Shown here: piece by piece, positions 26,648 to 28,583 of the stretch
How the letters are laid out: each line of letters begins with the position of its first letter
How positions within the stretch are numbered: the first letter of the stretch is position 1
NCBI RefSeq assembly: GCF_003063665.1
Contig: NZ_NESF01000003.1
Location: 1 to 64,000, forward strand
From: Limnohabitans sp. Hippo3
GTDB taxonomy: Bacteria > Pseudomonadota > Gammaproteobacteria > Burkholderiales > Burkholderiaceae_C
Length of the DNA stretch: 64,000 nt
Reading direction: 5' to 3'
Notes under the pieces: generated by a model
Database searches by the model: none
Seen by the model: the letters and a program-made list of their open reading frames with translations, nothing else
What the model was told of the DNA's origin: nothing
Translations under genes and position numbers: made by a program

Positions 26648-27232
26648 TCAGCTGCGCTGCAGTTTGTACACCGCTGTGCCGGCCATCAGGTTGGGCAACA
26701 CACGCACTTCCTGTCCGTGTTGCAGACCGAAGGCATCCACCACCTGCAGGTGGTTTTTACGGGCCAGGTCGCCAAAGTCGGCAAAGGTGCCCACGCGGAT
26801 GTTGGGCGTGTCGTACCACTGGTAAGGCAGGCGCTTGGTCACCGGCATGCGGCCTTGCAGCACGCTCAGGCGGTTGAACCAGTGCGCAAAGTTGGGGAAG
26901 GCCACGATGCCGACGCGGCCCACACGCACCGTTTCGCGCAACATGGTTTCGGCGTTGCGCAGGTGTTGCAGGGTGTCGATTTGCAGCACCACGTCAAACG
27001 ATTGGTCGGCAAACAGGCTCAGGCCTTCGTCCAGGTTGAGCTGGATCACGTTCACGCCGCGCTGTACGCAGGCGTGCACATTGGCGTCGTCCAGCTCCAC
27101 ACCGTAGCCGGTGCAAGCATTGTGTTGTTGCAGGTGGGCCAGCAAGGCGCCGTCGCCACAGCCCAGGTCGAGCACGCGGGCGCCGTGTGGCACCAGCCGC
27201 GCAATGGCTTGCATGATCAGGGGGTCGCTCAT
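26648..27232 (-). CDS. metW: Methionine biosynthesis protein MetW
   Basis: A 194-residue methyltransferase-fold protein. The SAM-binding glycine motif is [12 protein letters not shown] at about residues 20-31, followed by YGVELDD. The MetW signatures are [18 protein letters not shown] and [11 protein letters not shown]. It acts with MetX in forming O-acylhomoserine. The start overlaps the metX stop by 4 bases, the usual metXW coupling. Confidence 0.95.
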
Positions 27233-28383
27233 GCGGCACCTCCTTCGTTCAAAGTCTTCGCCATGTTGTCAAAGTAAGAACGCACCACATTCAGGTAACG
27301 CGCATCGTCGAGCAAAAAGGCGTCGTGTCCGTGCGGTGCGTCGATTTCTGCGTAGCTCACGTCGCGGCGGTTGTCGAGCAGGGCCTTGACCATTTCGCGG
27401 CTGCGGGCGGGCGAGAAGCGCCAGTCGGTGCTGAAGCTGACCAGCAGGAATTTGCAGCGGGCACGGGCAAAAGCCTGCGACAAATCGCCGCCAAAAGCGC
27501 GGGCCGGATCGAAGTAATCGAGCGCCCGGGTGATCAGCAAATAGGTGTTGGCGTCAAAGTACTCGCTGAACTTGTCGCCCTGGTAGCGCAAGTAGCTCTC
27601 GATCTGGAACTCCACCTCTTGTGTGGAGTATTTGTAGCCGGTGGCGTTGTGCGTCACCGCCGTGCGCAGCTCGCGGCCAAACTTTTCATTCATCACGTCG
27701 TCGCTCAGGTACGTGATGTGGCCGATCATGCGGGCGATGCGCAGGCCGCGCTTGGGCACCACGCCTTGGGCGTAAAAGTGGCCGTTGTGGAAGTCCGGGT
27801 CGGTCACGATGGCGCGGCGGGCCACTTCGTTGAAGGCGATGTTTTCGGCGTTGAGGTTGGGGGCGCTGGCCACCACCACCGCGTGCTTCACGCGCTCGGG
27901 GTATTGCAGTGTCCAGCTCAGCGCCTGCATGCCGCCCAAGCTCCCGCCCATCACGGCGGCCAGTTGTTCAATGCCCAACGCGTCGAGCAAATGGGCTTGG
28001 GCGTTGACCCAGTCTTCCACCGTGACCACCGGAAAGTCCGCGCCATACACGCGCCCGGTGTCGGGGTTGGTGTGCATGGGGCCGGTGGAGCCAAAGCACG
28101 AACCCAGGTTGTTCACGCCGATCACAAAAAAGCGGTCGGTGTCCAGGGACTTGCCGGGGCCGATCATGTTGTCCCACCAGCCCACATTGTGGGGTTGGTC
28201 GGCGTACACGCCCGCCACATGGTGCGAGGCGTTGAGCGCGTGGCAGATCAGCACCGCGTTGGATTTGTCGGCGTTGAGCGTGCCGTAGGTTTCGTAGCTC
28301 AGCGAATAGCCACGGAGGGACGCACCGCTTTGCAAAGGCAAAGGGGCTTCAAACAGCATGCTTTGGGATTCGGCGATCAGCAT
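27229..28383 (-). CDS. metX: Homoserine O-acyltransferase MetX
   Basis: A 384-residue alpha/beta-hydrolase that acylates homoserine in methionine synthesis. The nucleophile Ser148 is in [11 protein letters not shown], the oxyanion region is [14 protein letters not shown], and the catalytic Asp and His lie near FSTDWRFSP and [11 protein letters not shown]. Proteobacterial MetX paired with MetW often uses succinyl-CoA, so acetyl versus succinyl specificity is open. A SAM-II-like aptamer and a terminator precede the ATG, pointing to control by S-adenosylmethionine. Confidence 0.95.
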
Positions 28384-28402: not shown

Positions 28403-28442
28403 AAAAAACAAAACCCGGCTTCGCAGTCAGCTGGGCCGGGCT
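28403..28442 (-). terminator. Intrinsic terminator in the metX leader
   Basis: On the minus strand CCCGGC (28440-28435) pairs with GCCGGG (28419-28414), extendable by A-T pairs, followed by a T-rich run ending at 28403. It lies between the riboswitch aptamer and the metX start, so it is an attenuator rather than an end-of-gene terminator. Confidence 0.75.
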
Positions 28443-28460
28443 TCAGTGGGTTGAAACACA

Positions 28461-28523
28461 CGCCATTTAGCTGAATTTCGAAACCAGGGGTTTCGGCGCC
28501 CGCAATCAGGTTCAAATCGGCGC
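28461..28523 (-). ncRNA. SAM-II (SAM-alpha) riboswitch aptamer
   Basis: Read on the minus strand, stem P1 is GCGCC (28523-28519) with GGCGC. The loop begins with GATTTGAACC and ends in TTGCG, matching my memory of the SAM-II consensus (GATTTgACC...TTGCa). After a variable hairpin (GAAAC-CCCTG-GTTTC) comes the conserved GCTAAA, followed by GG for the pseudoknot. A TATACT -10-like box sits at 28538-28533, so transcription would begin almost exactly at P1. An intrinsic terminator and metX follow. Not verified against a covariance model. Confidence 0.75.
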
Positions 28524-28583
28524 ATAAAGCCGAGTATAAGGGCGAAGGACCAGCCCCATCAGAAGCACGCCGCAGGAGCACGC

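Follow-up and report, generated by a model that had tools for sequence, protein, structure and literature searches.

A SAM-II-type riboswitch candidate with an inserted hairpin upstream of metX and metW in Limnohabitans

The leader of metX-metW in Limnohabitans sp. Hippo3 very likely acts as a SAM-II-type riboswitch that turns the two genes off by early transcription termination at high SAM, with SAM as the presumed ligand. Judged from its sequence, the element would be a SAM-II riboswitch with an added P3 hairpin, adding a new structural form to a known class and not founding a class of its own. We call it a variant because its P3 has 7 bp, whereas the available text of PMC6061858 states that SAM-II has no P3. 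The conservation of the element, its covariation, and the match between an aptamer strand and the terminator are computational observations.

Leader architecture and distribution

We analyzed a window of 64,000 nucleotides (contig NZ_NESF01000003.1). An earlier note on this DNA had named a TATACT box, a P1 stem (GCGCC/GGCGC), a loop, GCTAAA, a terminator, and metX, and we located each of them on the minus strand (Table 1). Read from 28538 to 28403, the order is TATACT, GCGCC-GATTTGAACCTGATTGCG-GGCGC, a 17-nt hairpin, AAATTCA, GCTAAATGG, and a strong terminator. The attenuator that had been placed before metX is there, with both terminator arms and a T6 tail, and 19 nt separate this tail from the start codon of metX. 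We find GATTTG-TTGC-GCTAAA, in this order, a single time in the window; 100 windows with shuffled letters yielded one occurrence in total. Among 287 leaders, 158 have a -10-like hexamer no more than 30 nt from P1 (143 of them at 6 to 11 nt), versus 13 after shuffling. The best match of MetX is the succinyl-specific NCBIfam model, and since this model scores highest, the product may be O-succinylhomoserine.

Table 1. Features of the metX-metW leader and the downstream genes (positions in the window)
Feature	Position	Strand	Basis or remark
-10 box TATACT	28538-28533	-	sequence; 9 nt 5' of P1
P1 5' strand GCGCC	28523-28519	-	sequence, fold; 100% paired in 61 P3-type leaders
L1 segment GATTTGAACC..TTGCG	28518-28501	-	sequence
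Loop L1 GAUUUG	28513..28518	-	counterpart of SAM-pocket U10-U12; invariant in 24 genus leaders
Pseudoknot 5' side: CC (P2a), UGA, UUGC (P2 core)	28502..28510	-	alignment, covariation
P1 3' strand GGCGC	28500-28496	-	sequence; 61-leader set
Inserted hairpin P3 CGAAACC-CCU-GGUUUCG	28479..28495	-	double changes at 7/7 pairs, 61 leaders
A-rich end of L3, AAAUUCA, retained 3' of the hairpin	28472..28478	-	A-minor strand in SAM-II crystal structure
Pseudoknot 3' side GCUAAA (28471-28466) plus UGG: P2 core, P2a	28463..28471	-	alignment, covariation
Predicted antiterminator, -17.8 kcal/mol	28427..28474	-	folding, hybridization
Predicted antiterminator pairs	UCAGCU 28474-28469/AGCUGA 28432-28427; GGC 28464-28462/GCC 28436-28434; GUUUCA 28457-28452/UGAAGC 28445-28440
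Intrinsic terminator, arms 28445-28435 and 28419-28409, then T6; -20.1 kcal/mol	28403..28445	-
metX (homoserine O-succinyl/acetyltransferase)	27229..28383	-	NCBIfam NF047916 MetX_succinyl, 658.9 bits, cut-off 560
metW	26648..27232	-	TIGR02081, 236.6 bits, cut-off 189.5; overlaps metX

A DNA match to the leader was found in 26 of 60 genomes: our own, 24 same-genus leaders, and one hit (L028) that was rejected as chance, being the sole match outside the genus and lying inside a coding sequence. Limnohabitans sp. DM1 belongs to the genus (locus L304 of genome G456 lies within locus L167). One leader (L023) ends at a contig end; its metX start was read separately, and it was left out of the full-aptamer alignment. 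All 24 full aptamers, window included, lie upstream of a MetX homologue. The genus leaders fall into two subclades, GATTTGAACCC..GCTAAATGG, to which the window belongs, and GATTTGCTCCA..GCTAAAGAG.

We built a model, R1, on 21 distinct aptamers of the genus, namely that of the window and those of 20 other leaders. At an E value of 0.01, where the weakest matches may be due to chance, R1 matched 63 of 80 genomes of the genus (43 of the 50 good ones), 217 of 250 in the family, and 265 of 399 in the order; our own genome holds exactly one match. Most of the R1 matches among those listed for the family and order span about 50 to 57 nt and have no hairpin. Among 274 distinct aptamers, L3 measures exactly 12 nt in 158 and frequently follows the type GTTAAAAATACR. 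A letter-pattern search returned at least 118 stretches, 80 of them listed; because it demanded GGGCGC and 118 is a lower bound, P1 variation and taxon frequencies are not readable from it.

Class assignment, pseudoknot, and P3 hairpin

According to the available text of PMC3764141, residues U10-12, U20, U21, G22, C23, and G42-A47 are completely conserved in SAM-II and build the SAM pocket, and A36 and A37, both adenines of L3, pack against P1. All of these pocket residues have positional counterparts in the window, and GAUUU, UUGC, and GCUAAA are invariant in the 24 genus leaders. The AAAU of the window, 3' of the hairpin, takes the same place as A36/A37.

The earlier note had looked to the Rfam SAM-II model (RF00521) for a significant match, and there its expectation failed: the window element has a partial match of 12.5 bits (E 4.9), below the cut-off of 36 bits; this value is a limit for searching and not a feature of the structure. 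An Rfam scan of the whole window likewise returned nothing above cut-off. Among 300 genomes of the order, RF00521 had a match in 142, a tally that counts a chance match in our own genome too, and passed its cut-off in 51. The best of the 10 own-genome matches at E ≤ 10 (22.5 bits, E 0.0096) falls within a coding stretch, which we take to be dnaK-like, and was set aside as chance. R1 recovered all 20 of the best-scoring fetched loci above the RF00521 cut-off, at E 1.5e-7 or better, and the window element therefore grades into Rfam-grade SAM-II. The RF00521 miss in the window would most simply be due to the extra hairpin and the beta-type letters. The assignment to the SAM-II type is supported by the pocket residues, by the recovery of RF00521 loci with R1, and by covariation in P2a.

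This covariation was measured in 177 deduplicated aptamers (among them loci chosen by pattern and a few second copies) by comparing L1 positions -1 to -9 with +6 to +16 on the GCTAAA strand. Two nested neighbors, the P2a pairs -5:+10 (z 8.2; TA 53, CG 52) and -4:+9 (z 6.6), took the top two ranks among 99, in this order. In the window, -4:+9 is a C-G pair, but -5:+10 is a C.C mismatch, and the same two positions are paired in 63.9% of cells in 61 P3-type leaders; we therefore read the window P2a as 1 to 2 bp. In these 61 leaders, P1 had a double change at one of five pairs, in two sequences, and P1 and the P2 core are nearly invariant in the window's subclade. The covariation expected of both P1 and the pseudoknot was thus borne out for P2a in the wider family, whereas the near-invariant P1 says little. 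The covariation score of the whole structure was reached by none of 500 shuffles of the 61 leaders.

The 61 distinct leaders come from 64 P3-type leaders, of which L038, L205, and L295 were excluded for a differing hairpin or lineage. Within P3 itself, both sides changed at all seven pairs and 86.4% of cells were paired, which confirms the hairpin that had been proposed between P1 and GCTAAA. The available text of PMC6061858 describes SAM-V as having a 3-bp P3 stem-loop immediately 3' of P1 and, beyond it, A-minor adenines. The window P3 occupies that place, between P1 and the A-minor strand. It would fill the first half of L3, directly 3' of P1, and leave the packing of AAAU on P1 intact. P3 most likely stacks on P1 and would thereby stabilize the aptamer or speed its folding. 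A literature search by titles and abstract openings found no paper on a SAM-II hairpin, which is weak evidence, as most subscription papers were beyond reach.

To place the forms, we used a quick MetX tree with 111 rows, no more than 14 of them from the genus. P3 took 14 parsimony changes, at least 4 of which are forced by well-supported branches, and gain and loss are indistinguishable by this count. Most P3 rows sit in one clade (53 rows, 36 with P3), and P3 and short forms are neighbors on the tree. As loci were chosen by best R1 score, P3 forms are overrepresented among them. P3 forms also precede metZ (L038, L313, and L314; best NCBIfam match O-succinylhomoserine sulfhydrylase, above cut-off).

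Other L3 insertions were also observed. SAM-II elements with an L3 hairpin lie upstream of metH-like genes at L039, L052, L057, L059, and L171; the best NCBIfam match of these genes is methionine synthase, and as the loci stop within the gene, the score stays under the whole-protein cut-off. Longer L3 inserts, of 40 to 55 nt, occur at L263, L297, L298, L312, L313, and L314.

Terminator, antiterminator, and alternative readings

Of 274 distinct aptamers, 211 have a terminator hairpin no more than 170 nt from GCTAAA, versus 2 of 274 when shuffled; the set includes second copies and two misread starts. Such a hairpin is present in 83 of 87 P3 forms, and none was found within 170 nt for 59 of 187 short-form and 4 of 87 P3-form aptamers. 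We hybridized the strand from -4 to +10 around GCTAAA with each leader's own terminator. The mean was -11.52 kcal/mol, versus -7.8 after shuffling and -7.6 for 273 control hairpins from the same loci, which may include nonterminators. Permuted partners gave -9.62 kcal/mol, and none of 200 permutations was as low as the own pairing. The result also holds within the short form (128 leaders), within the P3 form (83), and with one leader per distinct strand (98). Relatedness, which inflates permutation tests, was reduced but not removed. TTTAGC, which pairs with GCTAAA, occurs in 31 of 211 terminators and in 0 of 273 controls.

In the window, the predicted antiterminator and the terminator have the 5' arm in common. 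AGCUGA or GCUGAA is retained in all 21 terminators of the window's subclade. Against shuffled letters, the antiterminator segment has a moderate mean z of -1.90 (below -2 in 96 of 211 leaders; -1.6 in the window). The antiterminator pairs at least four of the six GCUAAA letters in 105 of the 211 leaders (the mean is 3.82, versus 2.17 when shuffled), and three of six in 20 of the 21 subclade leaders. As another antiterminator, we tried the P1 3' strand against the terminator 5' arm: CCCG occurs in 168 of 211 arms versus 17 of 264 controls, but the test is not specific, since a reversed probe scores alike. Pairing of the GCUAAA strand is therefore the better supported antiterminator, and both pairings may coexist.

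These features suggest the following switch. SAM would fold the leader into an H-type pseudoknot made up of P1, UUGC paired with GCUAA, and the short P2a. The pseudoknot would occupy the GCUAAA strand and leave the downstream RNA free to build the terminator. Without SAM, UCAGCU...GGC would pair with AGCUGA and GCC inside the terminator, and this antiterminator would cover most of the terminator 5' arm, allowing polymerase to reach metX. We infer the SAM-to-OFF direction from the mutual exclusivity of terminator and antiterminator and from the SAM-II metZ RNA of Sinorhizobium, of which a short terminated form increases at high SAM (PMC9373788, available text). In 2007, a terminator-type mechanism for SAM-II was called not experimentally established (PMC2258182).

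We consider it quite improbable that the element only resembles SAM-II and belongs instead to SAM-V or to a third class of pseudoknot that has a ligand of its own. Its score below the RF00521 cut-off would suit a non-SAM-II reading, and a P3 directly 3' of P1, A-minor adenines after it, and a P2a of 1 to 2 bp are traits of SAM-V as given in the available text of PMC6061858. Against this, the SAM-V model RF01826 (cut-off 41 bits) finds nothing in our own genome at E 10. In its core letters the element passes gradually into short forms, of which some exceed the RF00521 cut-off, and P3 and short forms adjoin on the MetX tree. SAM-V is moreover described as translational (PMC6061858, available text), whereas the window element has a terminator.

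Two further readings concern what the leader does. P3 might itself be part of the switch, with its arms pairing with the terminator (CGAAACCC with GGGUUUUG, GGUUUCG with CGAAGCC). Such pairing does appear when the full window leader is folded to minimum energy, and this fold lacks the plain terminator and P3. Among 21 subclade leaders with a terminator, however, CGAAGCC is found in 20 and its partner GGTTTCG in only 10, and the P3 arms change together with each other and not with the terminator, making this reading very unlikely. A constitutive attenuator or leftover leader that senses no ligand would be compatible with the fact that ligand binding is deduced here from sequence; yet the pocket residues are invariant while P3 drifts, and R1 finds the element in most of the good genus genomes, so that we give this account hardly any weight.

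Relation to known elements

The window element resembles SAM-II (SAM_alpha, RF00521) as presented in the available text of Corbino et al. 2005 (PMC1273637) in its P1, GAUUU loop, UUGC/GCUAA pseudoknot, and A-rich L3, as well as in its association with methionine genes, the -10 box just 5' of P1, and the terminator. It departs from SAM-II in the 17-nt L3 hairpin, the P2a of 1 to 2 bp, and the score below the Rfam cut-off. With SAM-V (RF01826; PMC6061858, available text) it shares the P3 stem-loop right 3' of P1, the A-minor adenines, and the short P2a; it differs in a P3 of 7 bp instead of 3, in a terminator instead of translational control, and in giving no RF01826 match.

That SAM-II is best known from alphaproteobacteria, as the earlier note had it, is right, and beta examples have been in print since 2005: Bordetella bronchiseptica is among the organisms of the SAM-II figure in Corbino et al. 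(PMC1273637, available text), and PMC2704228, in its available text, names SAM-II for alpha, beta, and gamma groups. A betaproteobacterial host alone is therefore not new. The spermidine-sensing SAM variants of PMC10853860 belong to SAM-I in the available text and have no bearing on the window element.

The window element is very probably the metXZ RNA of Leyn et al. 2014 (PMC4239095), on the basis of that paper's text, the gene context, and the taxa. Like the window element, metXZ lies upstream of metX-metW and has a pseudoknot, a terminator, and an antiterminator proposed in that paper. In its available text, metXZ is a new element with no ligand given, is found in 10 of 11 Comamonadaceae of the table, and also precedes metZ in Methylophilales, Nitrosospira, and Thiobacillus. 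Unlike our assignment, the same text places SAM_alpha in Rhizobiales and Rhodobacterales only (PMC4239095). We found a SAM-II leader before a MetX homologue in a Bordetella-named MAG (L139; RF00521, 35.5 bits). SAM-II leaders also precede an O-succinylhomoserine sulfhydrylase gene (metZ) in Nitrosospira (L152; 32.1 bits) and in Novimethylophilus (L141; 36.9 bits), the latter presumably a member of Methylophilales. Our literature search found no paper linking metXZ to SAM-II, weak evidence of absence given that most subscription papers were beyond reach; on SAM-II or riboswitches in Comamonadaceae, or methionine in Burkholderiales, it found Leyn et al. 2014 alone, again weak evidence.

Two observations concern neighboring RNAs. 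RF02424 (Bp2_287, a Burkholderia sRNA; cut-off 70) scores 26 to 39 bits on the strand opposite SAM-II leaders (L038, L039, L057, L082, L141, L161, L201, L218, and L235) and 17.8 bits opposite the window leader (28408-28558, plus strand). The printed RF02424 consensus, read backwards, contains a SAM-II aptamer; the family might be a wrong-strand annotation of a SAM-II leader. In Halomonas, Parachitinimonas, and others (L058, L067, L072, L149, L161, L201, L218, L234, and L235), a second GATTT..TTGC..GCTAAA element follows the aptamer and terminator by 100 to 170 nt, shortly before possible start codons; RF01826 had no match at these second elements at E 0.05.

The chances seem about even that SAM-II and SAM-V are the ends of one family, that P3 came and went in the SAM-II lineages of this order, and that metXZ is the same riboswitch. 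The P3 variant offers a structural link between SAM-II and SAM-V. The assignment points to a blind spot of Rfam, as R1 matches 217 of 250 family genomes and the RF00521 cut-off is passed by 1 of 9 family members listed. It also offers a testable antiterminator for terminator-type SAM-II leaders and SAM as a candidate ligand for the orphan element published in 2014.
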